This document shows positions 1,743 through 15,054 of a stretch of DNA of 30,598 nucleotides, in pieces; the first letter of the stretch is position 1, and every line of letters begins with the position of its first letter. Below the pieces are notes generated by a model. The model was not told where the DNA came from, made no database searches, and saw only the letters and a program-made list of their open reading frames with translations. Source of the stretch: a virus. The position numbers were made by a program, and so were the translations under genes. Location: IMG/VR virus record IMGVR_UViG_3300031758_000372, positions 1-30,598 of that record; one strand, given 5' to 3'.

Positions 1743-2092
1743 CAGAAAGGAACTCCTTCGTACTCTTGGATTGGCTTTGGCTTGCCCCAATAGGCAGGTG
1801 CCATGTCAGGTGTTTCAAACAGGTGCATGGTCGAACATAGATGGGTGGCAAGGGTGATGGCGTTAGGATTGATTCCCATTGCAATCCGACTTGAAGTTCT
1901 TCTGACTGCCTCAAATGAAACGACAGTCTTGTGGCATTCATAGGTTCTTGCACCCTGCAAAATCTTCACGATCTCTTCGGCAATGTTGAGCCGAGCCGTA
2001 TCAAGTTTTGTCTCGAATCCTGCCGATGATAAACCGCGCCAAATAAGTTTTCCACAGGCTCGGCAGTTTATTGGTTCAAAGTTGAAATTCAT
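1742..2092 (-). CDS. Hypothetical protein with CxxC motif
   Basis: A 116-residue protein. I start it at the ATG of MNFNFEPINCRACGKLIWRG, which overlaps a TAA as TAATG; the frame stays open to 2281 only by running through a GC-rich non-protein-like stretch. It has one CxxC (CRAC) near the N-terminus and two further Cys later (YECHKT, HLCST), compatible with a small zinc site. No family recognised. It sits directly upstream of, and is coupled to, the Zn/HTH protein and may act with it. Confidence 0.65.
   Translation of the reverse strand: MNFNFEPINCRACGKLIWRGLSSAGFETKLDTARLNIAEEIVKILQGARTYECHKTVVSFEAVRRTSSRIAMGINPNAITLATHLCSTMHLFETPDMAPAYWGKPKPIQEYEGVPF
2048..2056. promoter_or_regulatory. DnaA-box-like site
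   Basis: TTTTCCACA fits the DnaA box consensus TTWTNCACA. It lies inside the coding sequence of the 116-residue protein, left of the GC-rich repeats and in the same orientation as the site at 2236-2244. A nine-base match alone is weak; the pairing around the repeat block is the reason to list it. Confidence 0.3.
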
Positions 2093-2226
2093 TAAGATAA
2101 CCAATCCGTGAGCGTGCCACCGAACCGCGCCCCGCGCCCCTCTAAAGAGGGGGCGCGTCGGCGCGGTTGTCGGCAGTGTGCCGAGAAAATAGCGGAACAG
2201 TTCGGCGCGGTTCGGCGCGGTTGCAT
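2092..2226 (-). CDS. Possible 44-residue Arg-rich peptide in a GC-rich spacer
   Basis: A short frame starting just after the primase-helicase stop and ending exactly in a TAATG overlap with the next gene, which is the coupling style of this genome. The product begins MQPRRTAPNCSA and is Arg/Pro rich. Against it: there is no ribosome binding site, the base composition is unlike any neighbour, and the stretch consists of repeats and a long hairpin. It may be coding, a structured spacer, or both. Confidence 0.3.
   Translation of the reverse strand: MQPRRTAPNCSAIFSAHCRQPRRRAPSLEGRGARFGGTLTDWLS
2123..2222. repeat. GC-rich inverted and direct repeats
   Basis: The decamer CGGCGCGGTT occurs three times in direct orientation (2159-2168, 2203-2212, 2213-2222), the last two head to tail. 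The inverted form AACCGCGCC is at 2123-2131. Between 2123 and 2168 lies a long imperfect hairpin: outer arms 2123-2131 with 2160-2168, inner arms 2134-2143 with 2146-2156 (one bulged G). The composition is strikingly GC-rich against AT-richer surroundings. It lies between the primase-helicase gene and the downstream regulatory genes. It could be an origin, an iteron operator or a strong transcription attenuator. Confidence 0.7.
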
Positions 2227-2228
2227 TT

Positions 2229-4319
2229 TCAAGAGTTATCCACAGGCAAAGTCTCAAGAGTTCGGACATCATTGACCACAAAAGTTTTCTTGTGCTTGAA
2301 CAATTTCTTCTGTCCTTCCTCTTTCATCAATAGATTGCCACTCATCACAAGTGATGTTAAAGCTGTAGAAATCTCGGTGTTGCCAATCTTATGACCCTCT
2401 TTGCGAATCTTTTCTCTAATCTCATTCAACCCCATCTCATACCCATGTGCTTCCATAAACTGTGAGACCAACTCAAGGCGAGAGTCGGCAGAGGCGATGG
2501 CGACGGTGCCACCTGAGATTGACACCGAGATTGACCCATCCTTGCCGTTTCGGATATTGGCAACGCCGAGTGTCTTTGCATCAGGGCAGAGGGCTCGGAC
2601 ATAGCCTGGGCGATCTTTAGTGACCTTCAAATCTAGTGCTCCGTCAATGCCTCTGCCAAATGGCAAGGACACATCACAGGCAATTGCCACCCCATCAATA
2701 TCAGCACGCTTTGCTTGAGCGCCGATGGCATAGTTGCCTCGGTTGTCCTTAGATTTAGTCACATGGTCAATTGTCAGAATGCCTGATCCAAATATCTTCA
2801 AAGGCTTAAGAACCTTTTGTGTGAAGGTCGTTGCATCCTTGTTCTTTTCCAAATCAAGCCCAAGTAAGTTCATCGCAGCATTGACACCGTCCACGACAAT
2901 GAGCGTTGGCATGAACTTACCAATCTCGGTTTTCATAATCTCACCGATGCCCTCACCAAGAGGTTCATCAGGGTTGGCATACTTGAACGACTTCAACTTG
3001 GTCATGTCGCATTTGAGGGTCTGAAGGCGGTTAAAGATGCCACGGGCTGAATCCTCAAAGTCAATGTAGAAAACACAGTTGCCCTTTGCTAACTCCTGTC
3101 GCACCGCTTCGAGTGCCACCCAAGTCTTGCCTGACTCAGACTCACCAAAGAGTGCGTTGACCTTGCCTGCATAAAGAATGCAGTTGCCATCCTCACGGCG
3201 AAGCATTGATGGTGGCGGTTCTTCATCAAAGTCCTCATTCCAAATCTCGCGTGGAATCCAAGAACTTGTGGCAACTTCCTCATTCTCATCATGTAACTGC
3301 ACCATTGATGGAGCGTGAACATCTAGCCCTGCCCAATCGGTTTTCAGCTCTTGAGAGGCACCATATCCCTTCTCACGCAAGGCTTTGGCTGCCTGTTTGA
3401 AATCTCCATTGTGTTCAATCTGCGCGTAAGCGGCAAACTTAGAGTATGAGGATTCAGCGTTGAAGATAGTGCTTGTTGAAAATACAAACAGTTTGTCATT
3501 GCCGTTGAAGTTGGTGGTGGCAGATACGCCTTCATTCTTGCCTGGTCTGCGCCATGCTGTGGCATCGCCCTTTGAATACACCTTTGTCCATCCAAGAGGT
3601 TCAAGGATAGATTCCCAGGTGACTTTGGCGTTGTAGTCATCACCTGCCGACAAGAATGAGTCATCGCGCTTGACCACATCTGCCTGAATAGATTCAACTT
3701 TTGGCATCTGATCAAACATCGCAAAGAGGTTGTGCAGGGCGTTTCTCTCCTGCATGGTAATTGTTGGAATGGTCTCAATTGACCCACCAATCAATGTCCA
3801 ATTGCCACCTGATGGGTGTGTGGTGCCACCTGAAGGTGCGGTGATGGTGAACCCACCTTGACCGCGAGTCTCGGCAAGCACATCGTTGCCACCTTCACCT
3901 GGTTTGCGAGCCAACTTTGTGTTGCCAGGAACCTCGCAATCTGAAATCTTGTAAAGCCAATGAAGCCCACCTGAAGGTGTCATCTCCACATATCCTGAGT
4001 TCAACTGCTCCCATAACTCTTTCAATCCTGAGTTGTTGGCAATCTCTGCGATTTCAAGATGTATCTTTTGAGCTACGGCGCGACCTTCAAGTTCAAGCAT
4101 CTCAAGATTGCCGGATACCTTGCCGGTGACAACGCCAATGCCATCAACGCCATTCTTGAACCACATCAACAATTCATCAGTATTGGGCAGTTCCTCTTGA
4201 AAGCGTTGCCAGGCAAAGGCAGGTCGCTTGGAACCGTCATTGGCGACAGGAACGACAGAGATGCCTTCTTTTAAGAACCTGAGTGCGATTGGCAGTAGCT
4301 CATTCACTTGCCACCCCAT
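2229..4319 (-). CDS. PrimPol-helicase replication protein
   Basis: A 696-residue replicative primase-helicase. Residues 1-180 resemble the bifunctional primase/polymerase (PrimPol) domain: start of fold KEGISVVP, GVVTGKVSGN, then TPSGGLHWLY around 115-123 and ETRGQGGFTITAPSGG around 150-165. The usual DxD metal pair is here ExE (MLELEG, E76 and E78). A linker leads to a RepA/AAA_25-type helicase: Walker A GESESGKT (392-399), Walker B LIVVD (473-477), then TIDHVTKS and a YAIGAQAKRAD sensor region. The C-terminal 80 residues look like a winged helix. It probably primes and unwinds at the phage fork. The start overlaps the zinc-ribbon gene by 16 bases. Confidence 0.9.
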   Translation of the reverse strand: MGWQVNELLPIALRFLKEGISVVPVANDGSKRPAFAWQRFQEELPNTDELLMWFKNGVDGIGVVTGKVSGNLEMLELEGRAVAQKIHLEIAEIANNSGLKELWEQLNSGYVEMTPSGGLHWLYKISDCEVPGNTKLARKPGEGGNDVLAETRGQGGFTITAPSGGTTHPSGGNWTLIGGSIETIPTITMQERNALHNLFAMFDQMPKVESIQADVVKRDDSFLSAGDDYNAKVTWESILEPLGWTKVYSKGDATAWRRPGKNEGVSATTNFNGNDKLFVFSTSTIFNAESSYSKFAAYAQIEHNGDFKQAAKALREKGYGASQELKTDWAGLDVHAPSMVQLHDENEEVATSSWIPREIWNEDFDEEPPPSMLRREDGNCILYAGKVNALFGESESGKTWVALEAVRQELAKGNCVFYIDFEDSARGIFNRLQTLKCDMTKLKSFKYANPDEPLGEGIGEIMKTEIGKFMPTLIVVDGVNAAMNLLGLDLEKNKDATTFTQKVLKPLKIFGSGILTIDHVTKSKDNRGNYAIGAQAKRADIDGVAIACDVSLPFGRGIDGALDLKVTKDRPGYVRALCPDAKTLGVANIRNGKDGSISVSISGGTVAIASADSRLELVSQFMEAHGYEMGLNEIREKIRKEGHKIGNTEISTALTSLVMSGNLLMKEEGQKKLFKHKKTFVVNDVRTLETLPVDNS
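2236..2244. promoter_or_regulatory. Perfect DnaA-box-like site
   Basis: TTATCCACA, the consensus DnaA box, lies within the last codons of the primase-helicase gene and immediately right of the GC-rich direct repeats. Together with the box at 2048 it brackets the repeat region. Confidence 0.35.
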
Positions 4320-6353: not shown

Positions 6354-6740
6354 TTAGTACCAATTGAATTTTTGGAAGTGTGACCATGCCGAGCATGGAG
6401 ACACATGGCGCCTGTGGATATAGGCGAGAGTTGCCACAAGTTGTGACACCTTAGACTCAGAATGTTCCATTCCAAGATTGCGATAGGTTGAGTCAAGCAG
6501 TTGGCCGATGCCTTGAGCTGAACTCGTTGGATTTTTTGCATCTTTCCAGGCTGATTCTTTGCCAATCAACGCGGAAAAACATTTGTATTGCTTAGTTGTA
6601 AGCAAATCACGAGCCACTTCCTTCGGATTAACCTGTGCAAGTGGTGGTCGCTCTGAATAAATAACGGATGCAGGAACTGCAATTTGAGGCGAAAAAGCGG
6701 CATTGACAACCATTGATGTCAAACCACTCACGCTGATCAT
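6354..6740 (-). CDS. Secreted SLT-type lytic transglycosylase-like protein
   Basis: A 128-residue lysozyme-fold protein. Residues 1-27 are a hydrophobic signal-like leader. The domain from about 38 carries the SLT pattern: SALIGKESAWKD with catalytic E62, then SSAQGIGQLLDSTYRNLG. It would cleave peptidoglycan glycan strands. It is encoded in the early/replication region, far from the CHAP endolysin. It might therefore act in wall remodelling or superinfection exclusion rather than final lysis, which is inference. The ATG overlaps the WhiB stop (TAATG) with GGGGGATTGCA as binding site. Confidence 0.8.
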   Translation of the reverse strand: MISVSGLTSMVVNAAFSPQIAVPASVIYSERPPLAQVNPKEVARDLLTTKQYKCFSALIGKESAWKDAKNPTSSAQGIGQLLDSTYRNLGMEHSESKVSQLVATLAYIHRRHVSPCSAWSHFQKFNWY

Positions 6741-8049: not shown

Positions 8050-8058
8050 TTATCCACA
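8050..8058. promoter_or_regulatory. DnaA-box-like site in the divergent intergenic region
   Basis: TTATCCACA, a consensus match, lies midway between the divergent leftward and rightward units. A single isolated box may be chance, but a role in early regulation or replication initiation is possible. Confidence 0.3.
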
Positions 8059-9178: not shown

Positions 9179-9309
9179 TGGTCGGAAAGAAAATCAGGTC
9201 AGTCAGAGTCAGTGATCAAGTATGGGCGAAGGCGAAGGCGAAGGCACAGTCAGAAGGCAAATCAGTTTCCGAAGTAATTGTTGACTTTTTGAAGGGATAT
9301 ATCAAATGA
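9178..9309 (+). CDS. Ribbon-helix-helix (CopG-like) candidate regulator
   Basis: A 43-residue protein with the RHH pattern: a short basic strand (KKIRSVRVSDQVW), a helix rich in Ala and Lys (AKAKAKAQSEG), then KSVSEVIVDFLKGYIK as the second helix. It is a plausible DNA-binding autoregulator of this operon and could bind the inverted repeat in its promoter (inference). It is coupled on both sides (TAATG before, ATGA after). Confidence 0.7.
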   Translation: MVGKKIRSVRVSDQVWAKAKAKAQSEGKSVSEVIVDFLKGYIK

Positions 9310-9764
9310 CAAAAGCCACAACCGCCATTGCCTTTGCCGAAAGAGGTTGGCACATCTTGCCTGTTGCTCCTTATCAAAAGACACCATTCTTTCCCATTGC
9401 AACTCATGGGTATAAGTCAGCGACAACTGACATTGAATCCATTGAGAAATGGTTCACTCGCGCACCGATGCTCAACATTGGCATCGCTTGCGCCCCTTCA
9501 AACTTAGTTGTCTTTGACATTGATTACCGAAACGGCGGAACAACTGAAGGTCTTAACCTTGACACATTCACAGTTGCAACAGGCGATGGCTTGCATTTGT
9601 ATTACACCGCCCCTGCCGATGCTAAGTTCAAGGGAAAATTGCGTGAAGGCGTTGACATCAAACACAATGGATATGTTGTAGGCGCAGGATCATTGCACGA
9701 ATCAGGCAAGTTCTATGAGGTCGTCAAAGACATTCAACCTGCACCGATGATGGAGTGGATTTAG
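9306..9764 (+). CDS. Free-standing PrimPol-domain protein
   Basis: A 152-residue protein made only of a bifunctional primase/polymerase N-terminal domain. Visible elements in order: ERGWHILPVAP, NIGIACAPSNLVVFDID with a canonical DxD metal pair, TGDGLHLYY with the motif-II His, and GVDIKHNGYVVGAGS. It lacks the helicase and C-terminal domains of the large protein at 2229-4319. It could be a dedicated primer synthase, a bypass polymerase or a decoy. It is the last gene of the plus-strand operon, followed within 16 bases by a terminator. Confidence 0.85.
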   Translation: MTKATTAIAFAERGWHILPVAPYQKTPFFPIATHGYKSATTDIESIEKWFTRAPMLNIGIACAPSNLVVFDIDYRNGGTTEGLNLDTFTVATGDGLHLYYTAPADAKFKGKLREGVDIKHNGYVVGAGSLHESGKFYEVVKDIQPAPMMEWI

Positions 9765-14166: not shown

Positions 14167-15054
14167 TTAGTACCAAATCCAAATAAGACCAGCACCACCA
14201 GCGCCACTAATTCCAGAACTAGCATTGTTAGCGCCACCGCCCGCGCCACCGCCACCGCCATTTGTACCAGCCGTTCCAGCCGCACCGCCAGCACCGCCAG
14301 CACCGCCTGTAATAACGCAACCTGTATCTACGGTATAAGTAGAACCGCTTGAACCAGTACCGCTTTGTGCGCCACCAGAACCGCCACCACTACCGCCAGC
14401 GCCAGCGCCGCCATTACCGCCGGTTGTTCCACTACCCGCAGTTCCATTTGAACCAATTGATTGTATTCCAGCGCCACCACCGCCACCGCCACCAGCCAGT
14501 CCGACGCCAGCGCTATTACCACCAGAACCGCCACTTAAACTTCCAACACGAGAAAGACCGTTAAATGTTGGTGGAGTACTAGAGCCACCGCCAGCGGCAC
14601 CTTGTCGTCCACCACCGCCACCGCCTGCACTGCCACCGCCTAATAAAAATACATTGGGGCTAAAATAACTATTAGTAACTGCAGTCTGAGCACCAGTATT
14701 ATTACCAGAAGCACCACCGCCACCGCCAACAGCAAGACAAATGTTGGTTATCGATGTTGTTCCGCCAGTATTACCAGTTGCGCCTGTAACTGCCGTTCCA
14801 CCTGCTCCGATAGTGCAAACATAAGTTCCGGGCTGAAGATTTACAACTTTAAGTAAAGTTCCAGCACCGCCACCACCGCTGCCTGTGTTGTAAACTCCGT
14901 TGTTTGGGTCAGAACCGCCTGAACCGCCACCGCCAAGAACATAAAGATAGTTTGTTTGAGCACTTGTAGGAATTGTAAAAGTTCCAGTAGAAGTTATTGT
15001 TTGTTGAAGCGTTAAAGCAGGTGTGCCAGCGGCAGGTACTTGTGATGAACCCAT
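14167..15054 (-). CDS. Glycine-rich tail adhesin-like protein
   Basis: A 295-residue protein with a beta-rich N-terminal 40 residues (TLQQTITSTGTFTIPT). A very Gly-rich remainder follows, built of runs of Gly with Ala, Ser, Thr and Asn spacers, ending AGGAGLIWIWY. Phage tail-fibre tips and receptor-binding adhesins use such polyglycine-II sandwiches (T-even gp38-like), so host recognition is the likely role. The repeated GGN codons give visible low-complexity DNA that would also promote recombination and host-range variation. Confidence 0.75.
   Translation of the reverse strand: MGSSQVPAAGTPALTLQQTITSTGTFTIPTSAQTNYLYVLGGGGSGGSDPNNGVYNTGSGGGGAGTLLKVVNLQPGTYVCTIGAGGTAVTGATGNTGGTTSITNICLAVGGGGGASGNNTGAQTAVTNSYFSPNVFLLGGGSAGGGGGGRQGAAGGGSSTPPTFNGLSRVGSLSGGSGGNSAGVGLAGGGGGGGAGIQSIGSNGTAGSGTTGGNGGAGAGGSGGGSGGAQSGTGSSGSTYTVDTGCVITGGAGGAGGAAGTAGTNGGGGGAGGGANNASSGISGAGGAGLIWIWY

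Follow-up and report, generated by a model that had tools for sequence, protein, structure and literature searches.

A candidate replication origin downstream of rep

The window, by which we mean the whole stretch analysed here, consists of the 30,598 nucleotides of IMG/VR virus record IMGVR_UViG_3300031758_000372. Its minus strand carries the replication gene rep, which encodes a PrimPol-helicase, and the 132 bp gap that follows this gene (positions 2097–2228, perhaps extending to 2244 if a DnaA-box-like site is included) is very probably the replication origin of the phage, read by the protein encoded just upstream. This assignment is drawn from sequence comparison. An earlier note on this DNA had proposed an origin beside its initiator gene, built of iteron-like repeats and bracketed by DnaA-box-like sites. 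The iteron-type origin is strongly supported, both by conservation in relatives and by a coupling between the iterons and the winged helix of Rep, but the DnaA bracketing is not.

In the orientation of the gene, the gap contains AACCGCGCC iterons as two tandem copies, a degenerate third slot and one copy in each arm of a long hairpin, such that they surround the conserved hairpin centre CCCCCTCTTTAGAGGGG. Along the minus strand, AACCGCGCCG, AACCGCGCCG and AACTGTTCCG follow each other in tandem with a 10 bp spacing; then come a small hairpin and the long hairpin, which reads AACCGCGCC, inner arm, CCCCCTCTTTAGAGGGG, inner arm, GGCGCGGTT. The elements that had first drawn attention to the region are all present: three direct copies of CGGCGCGGTT on the plus strand (2159–2168, 2203–2212 and 2213–2222), an inverted copy of its core (AACCGCGCC at 2123–2131), the long hairpin and a GC-rich island, positions 2121–2220 being the most GC-rich 100 bp of the record (71% versus 46%). 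With one mismatch allowed, the decamer CGGCGCGGTT is found only at 2032–2222 in the 30.6 kb record, with five matches against 0.74 expected, a number reached in 0 of 100 shuffles. A further AACCGCGCC at 2032–2040 lies within the downstream gene and is not conserved. The earlier note does not mention the third tandem slot, the small hairpin or the conserved centre of the long hairpin. Any 9-mer reaches four copies in the gap in 8 of 1000 shuffles, and the repeats alone are therefore just moderately unusual. The 134-nt strand folds more stably than its dinucleotide shuffles, with z = −3.4 as DNA and z = −2.9 as RNA.

Conservation and pairing of the hairpin

Conservation in relatives had been named beforehand as a test, and the element is indeed kept. 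A protein search with the window Rep gave 31 loci (here and below, loci are identified by L numbers). Their sequence includes the end of rep in 25 cases and continues for 150 nt or more past it in 23; in all 23 the exact 16-nt core of CCCCCTCTTTAGAGGGG is found within 1.2 kb 3' of rep. With a Rep of the TT iteron type as query, 40 loci were obtained, 31 of them reaching the end of rep and 29 with enough sequence, and the exact core lies 3' of rep in 27 of these 29. Near-identical short direct repeats stand beside the initiator gene, as would be expected of an iteron-type origin.

Covariation was examined in an alignment of 18 of the 24 distinct segments, which includes all four iteron types. 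Paired cells amount to 97.4%, falling to 28–56% when the partners are slid by 1–3 columns, and 49 cells have changed on both sides, where shuffling gives a mean of 15.5. Covariation is seen in all four inner-arm pairs, none of them part of the iteron sequence; among the outermost pairs, one fails in 8 of the 18 sequences. These compensatory changes in the hairpin arms indicate that the pairing is selected.

The iteron type follows the winged helix

Pfam recognizes a Prim-Pol domain (9.8e-11) and an AAA_25 helicase domain (2.3e-6, 27.8 bits with a cut-off of 27) in Rep, and PHROG assigns it as a DNA polymerase/primase (2.8e-62). In the AlphaFold model of the C-terminal 127 residues, the part at residues about 606–690 has an H-H-H-E-E arrangement with block-mean predicted local distance difference test (pLDDT) values of 80–90, compared with 71.5 for the whole model. 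Foldseek matched this model to winged-helix DNA-binding domains, one of them at E ≤ 0.001.

The family iteron can be written AACYG-NN-CC, where NN is CG (the window), TT, AA or AT. The copies, including those in the hairpin arms, mostly switch type together; L053 is mixed. Trees were calculated for 57 contigs from the winged helix (residues 606–690) and from the remainder of Rep (residues 1–590). On the winged-helix tree the iteron type changes three times, the minimum for four types, as opposed to 11 times on the tree of the remainder, where nine changes still persist after weak or very short branches have been collapsed in its favour. When repeats from the same contig are included (67 rows), the numbers are again 3 and 11. 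Individual pairs illustrate the same point: L531 (AA) and L526 (TT) are 94% identical in PrimPol and 93% in the helicase compared with 48% in the winged helix, and the corresponding values for L529 and L526, both TT, are 88, 94 and 92%. When the columns of Rep are ranked by mutual information with the iteron type, 22 of the best 25 fall at residues 607–693; this measure is confounded by descent and was set aside, and we rely on the contrast between the trees instead. A coupled change of this kind would be expected of iterons that are read by the winged helix and swapped with it as a cassette, and it is from this coupling that we infer binding.

A plausible sequence of events can be built on this. 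The C-terminal winged helix would bind the AACCGCGCC iterons, and filling of the tandem sites together with the inverted pair at the hairpin base would gather helicase subunits at the dyad. This may help the bulged TTTA-loop hairpin to melt or extrude, after which the AAA_25 ring could load onto the opened strand and the PrimPol domain could prime. The iterons would then provide replicon specificity, exchangeable with the winged helix, and the hairpin would be the constant part common to many AAA_25-helicase phages.

The same core in unrelated phages

Viral and genome contigs were scanned for the TTTA core, and a scan in which the stem was kept but the loop replaced by TTCG served as a control. 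Each scan gave at least 119–120 matches, and fractions within the listed matches are compared here, not abundances. Duplicate flanks (more than 25% shared 8-mers) and matches too close to a contig end were left out before counting, and a site was called repeat-flanked when a 7-mer occurs at least four times within 150 bp, for which the background is 2.5%.

The exact 16-mer is found again in unrelated viral contigs amid differing repeats, for example CGTCCCA, ATGTCAC, CGGTACG, TGTCAAA and ATTGCAC. The matches listed include 64 independent TTTA-core flanks. Repeats surround 38 of these, and 29 are located no more than 600 bp 3' of an AAA_25/Rep gene; on the 5' side there are none (0/64). The listed TTCG controls are neither repeat-flanked (0/103) nor located 3' of such a gene (0/103). 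Among the 34 repeat-flanked viral sites listed, 20 have a C run that is one longer than the G run and five have one that is two longer; the runs are equal in four and the C run is shorter in five, versus symmetric runs in 95 of the 103 TTCG controls listed. A further 16 AAA_25-linked loci have one extra C (nine), two (two), the opposite lean (four) or symmetry (one). The count at viral sites leaves out four lineages for which the 5C/4G pattern alone had been observed, as judged from 80 of 119 listed rows. The TTTA strand thus usually, but not always, has one extra C.

Forty proteins are encoded 3'-adjacent to the core (26 at repeat-flanked sites, 14 not), and 30 of them were run against Pfam, leaving out seven window-family Reps, L065 of the same family, L117 and a repeat of L097. 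AAA_25 was found in 18 of the first 20 (19 repeat-flanked plus L157), 17 being above the curated cut-off and L049 below it. The other ten include L076 and L096 above the cut-off and L115, mainly DnaB_C, below it. Eight further proteins gave AAA_25 in L074, L098, L121 and L163 and no Pfam match in L118, L099, L110 and L083. The primase partners that Pfam detects beside AAA_25 are diverse (Prim-Pol, DnaG zinc ribbon, Toprim, RepB_primase, PriCT_2, the DnaB N-terminal domain, or none seen). As the core is constant beside such varied partners, it is more probably read by the AAA_25 domain or a host factor than by the primase.

In L121 (4516–8466, core at 6357) the repeats and core hairpin are located inside a 1317-residue open frame, an apparent origin within a coding frame. 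This origin-like stretch sits between the AAA_25 and the exonuclease/DNA polymerase A domains of a single Prim-Pol/AAA_25/PolA protein. In L097 (10260–10448), hairpins with differing C and G runs (CCCCTAAAGGGG type and TTTA core) stand in series beside a terminase gene.

The bare 16-mer was rejected as a diagnostic since most of its listed matches in bacterial genomes have no repeat flanks: 18 of 105 are repeat-flanked, two lie 3' of an AAA_25 gene and one lies 5'. Several bacterial assemblies contain the bare hairpin at a number of places with similar flanks of their own, resembling a dispersed repeat and mostly without iterons (L208, L211 and L246 in one Taylorbacteria assembly; L195, L197, L200 and L227 in one of Anaerolineaceae; L168, L169 and L176 in one of Oscillospiraceae; and L217 in Nomurabacteria). 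Repeat flanks accompany CCCCACTTTAGTGGGG at 3 of 9 sites, and for GCTCTCTTTAGAGAGC the number is 1 of 8; according to the model, no such site lies 3' of an AAA_25 gene. Hence neither the CCCCTC stem nor the AAA_25 link is absolute.

Helicase loci were also chosen without the core. AAA_25 genes from 274 + 246 bacterial genomes, a set whose two centre genomes had been picked via 16-mer matches, gave 57 places and 51 loci, 50 of which have an open AAA_25 frame. Arrays (a 7-mer at least five times in 400 bp) occur downstream in 14 of the 50 and upstream in none; at a threshold of at least four the numbers are 19 and 2. Perfect hairpins with a four-base loop number 16 downstream, and the three with a TTTA loop (L476, L478 and L490) have top 7-mer counts of 8, 10 and 4 beside them. 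By reading, 3' arrays are present in six of 14 named-phage loci (XX1924, RootBeer, Constance, Kc237, MinS1 and CRP-823); that of Kc237 consists of short GTTAC-like repeats, its top 8-mer occurring just twice. Arrays are thus often found 3' of the helicase gene, and the TTTA hairpin, although recurrent, is one of several centres.

We put at about even the chance that many AAA_25/RepA-type phages and prophages share one origin plan regardless of their primase, in which lineage-specific iterons, swappable with the DNA-binding domain of the helicase, surround a constant bulged C-rich TTTA hairpin. Under such a plan the AAA_25 ring or a host factor would read the constant hairpin as a loading site.

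DnaA-box-like sites and GC skew

The DnaA-box-like sites TTTTCCACA (2048–2056) and TTATCCACA are exact and, as the earlier note had it, share one orientation. Allowing up to one mismatch, the whole record contains 26 such sites versus 19.6 expected, and 26 was reached in 9 of 100 shuffles, so there is no clear enrichment. A third exact site, again TTATCCACA, lies at 8050–8058, close to the point around 8,000 where GC skew and the direction of the genes switch. As a general feature the bracketing is not supported: TTTTCCACA provides codons of the CxxCGK motif in the small downstream gene (1742–2095), and two of the four lineages retain TTATCCACA. Of 45 family members, 22 have it no more than 150 nt from the core (22/22 of the CG/AT type and 0/23 of the TT/AA type), and outside the window family it is present at 1 of 30 repeat-flanked sites. 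A DnaA-dependent (oriC-like) origin was rejected as the general plan on the grounds that the boxes are not conserved.

Apparent extra genes stand between rep and the repeat array in L017 (4690–5750) and L026 (1570–1810). The final codons of rep are missing there, and the inserted frame now ends with the tail that contains TGTGGATAAC. Despite the inserted genes, TTATCCACA is still just upstream of the first iteron, which suggests that box, iterons and hairpin act as one unit in that clade.

Alternative explanations

Several observations weigh against an origin with a shared hairpin. By the stricter measure no array is present in 36 of the 50 bacterial AAA_25 loci, and a perfect TTTA-loop hairpin lies downstream in 3 of them; a TTTA-loop hairpin is read in 3 of the 14 named-phage loci (XX1924, Kc237 and CRP-823), and the eight of these loci that have no array have no TTTA-loop hairpin either. 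The 29 of 64 linked flanks were assigned with an AAA_25 model trained on 12 proteins that all come from TTTA-core loci and are recovered by construction, and the window's own Rep family accounts for 9 of the 64 independent flanks. In the relatives L548 and L549 the iterons are kept with a different hairpin, in which, by eye, the C/G run again has one more C than G. The six core pairs and the TTTA loop are invariant in the covariation set, where most rows are core-selected, and the covariation fits RNA as well as DNA. Finally, the GC-skew minimum is at 14,934, away from the candidate origin, a result that the earlier note had named as refuting. It counts against the origin, but we give it little weight, the record being linear and of unknown completeness and its skew being probably dominated by gene strand.

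Three other functions for the gap were considered. An intrinsic transcription terminator or insulator behind rep, with incidental repeats, is unlikely. In its favour, the hairpin directly follows a gene, one flank in L032 resembles a T-tract, and a putative terminator stem-loop is described directly 3' of orf904 in pRN1 (PMC4234260, in extract). However, a T-rich tail accompanies 10 of 64 TTTA sites (5 of the 38 repeat-flanked ones) versus 90 of 103 TTCG hairpins among the matches listed, and none of the 103 listed TTCG-loop hairpins is repeat-flanked; it is through this control that the terminator was rejected. The window hairpin itself has no T-tract, and no terminator-like site is listed there. 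Of 20 AAA_25-linked loci listed from outside the window family, 11 have the TTTA loop on the coding strand of the AAA_25 gene and 9 have it on the other strand, which argues against a terminator as well as against any RNA of fixed orientation.

That the gap is transcribed into a structured RNA, either a regulator or a primer, is very improbable, even though covariation suits RNA equally and the RNA fold is favourable (z as given above). Rfam has no family near its gathering score in 1500–2800, both orientations relative to the gene occur, and an RNA would explain neither the repeats nor the way in which they are coupled to the winged helix. Iteron arrays serve also as operators and centromeres, and the Foldseek list includes AspA, a centromere-binding winged helix. 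The Rep winged helix might accordingly bind an operator or a partition (centromere-like) site that is not an origin; we give this just as slender a chance as the RNA, since the binding domain belongs to a primase-helicase and the arrays are found 3' of the AAA_25 gene, not on the promoter side (upstream 0/50; 5' side 0/64 of those listed). A replication origin is our preferred assignment.

Features of the region and neighbouring genes

The virus record is linear and also carries terminase, portal, major head protein and WhiB genes. The WhiB gene and the nearest named relatives, which are Arthrobacter phages, point to an actinobacterial host. A second, stand-alone Prim-Pol protein is encoded on the opposite strand (9306–9764, plus; Pfam 4.8e-31).

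Table 1. Positions of the candidate origin elements and adjacent genes in the window
Feature	Position	Strand	Basis
Replication protein: Prim-Pol, AAA_25 (RSF1010-RepA-type) helicase, C-terminal winged helix	2229–4319	−	Pfam, PHROG
Winged-helix coding part (residues about 606–690), proposed iteron reader	2250–2504	−	AlphaFold, Foldseek, iteron coupling
DnaA-box-like TTATCCACA, overlaps rep 3' end	2236–2244	+	CG/AT-type members only
Iteron 1, AACCGCGCC	2214–2222	−	
Iteron 2, AACCGCGCC, 10 bp from iteron 1	2204–2212	−	
Third tandem slot, degenerate AACTGTTCC, 10 bp from second repeat; AACCGCGCC in relative L029	2194–2202	−	
Small hairpin TCGGCA-CAC-TGCCGA	2170–2184	−	
Long hairpin: outer arms are inverted iterons, centre conserved	2123–2168	−	Covariation, 18 distinct sequences
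Iteron 3, AACCGCGCC, 5' arm of long hairpin	2160–2168	−	
Conserved core CCCCCTCTTTAGAGGGG, 17-mer: TTTA loop and one unpaired extra C	2137–2153	−	
Inverted iteron, 3' arm of long hairpin	2123–2131	+	
Small downstream gene, CxxC motif, PHROG 10480 (unknown function); outside origin	1742–2095	−	PHROG

Comparison with known systems

For most metagenomic phages the replication origin is not known. A 17-mer hairpin within a repeat array 3' of an AAA_25 gene provides a searchable signature for candidate origins in many uncultured phages. Full-text searches of open-licence PubMed Central, with subscription literature outside the search, listed no paper with a description of the core sequence or of this combination in its title or the start of its abstract, and neither is described in the available part of a paper on an AAA_25-like Lactococcus phage helicase (PMC8965321). 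The kind of origin is known in general; the shared hairpin core with swappable specificity was not found described. The coupled swaps of iterons and winged helix are natural experiments, and initiator specificity can be tested by domain exchange.

SaPI Rep-ori is a related known system, compared here by description and not by sequence, and the helicase of the phage P4 alpha protein belongs to superfamily 3 (SF3). The likeness between P4 and the window is likewise one of description: alpha is a primase-helicase in which a winged helix reads short repeats, but its primase is of the Toprim type (PMC4234260; this source, like PMC8263062 and PMC7145576 below, is cited from extracts). The nearest tested case is the crenarchaeal plasmid pRN1, where a stem-loop 3' of the gene for a PrimPol-helicase-winged-helix protein is required for replication; a similar stem-loop 3' of the replication gene has been proposed as the origin of phage BIP-1 (PMC4234260). 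The window shares with pRN1 this protein architecture and a stem-loop 3' of its gene with its pairing kept. However, pRN1 is described as having an SF3 helicase, no iterons and a stem-loop poorly conserved in sequence (PMC4234260), whereas the window combines an AAA_25 helicase and iterons with a hairpin core that recurs across unrelated replicons.

The RSF1010/IncQ oriV resembles the window in its RepA-type helicase, its iterons and its short stem-loops for priming, but there a separate RepC reads the iterons and RepB' the hairpins (PMC4234260). In the window no separate RepA, RepB and RepC are found; PrimPol and AAA_25 are fused and the C-terminus models as a winged helix. In the scanned stretches of pMS260 and pTC-F14, all perfect hairpins listed (stem of at least 7) have other loops, and pMS260 has one CTTTAG with a short stem. 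As a matching hairpin is absent from these stretches, IncQ plasmids were dropped as a yardstick.

In the PLE satellites of Vibrio cholerae, which carry RepA and an origin (PMC8263062, PMC7145576), the DNA-binding domain is exchanged together with the origin, and the swapping is attributed to an origin-cutting nuclease (PMC8263062). Their initiator is of the RepA_N type, and the word hairpin occurs 0 times in the available text of PMC8263062. The coupled swaps seen here raise the possibility that phages, too, escape competition or attack at the origin as these satellites do (PMC8263062).

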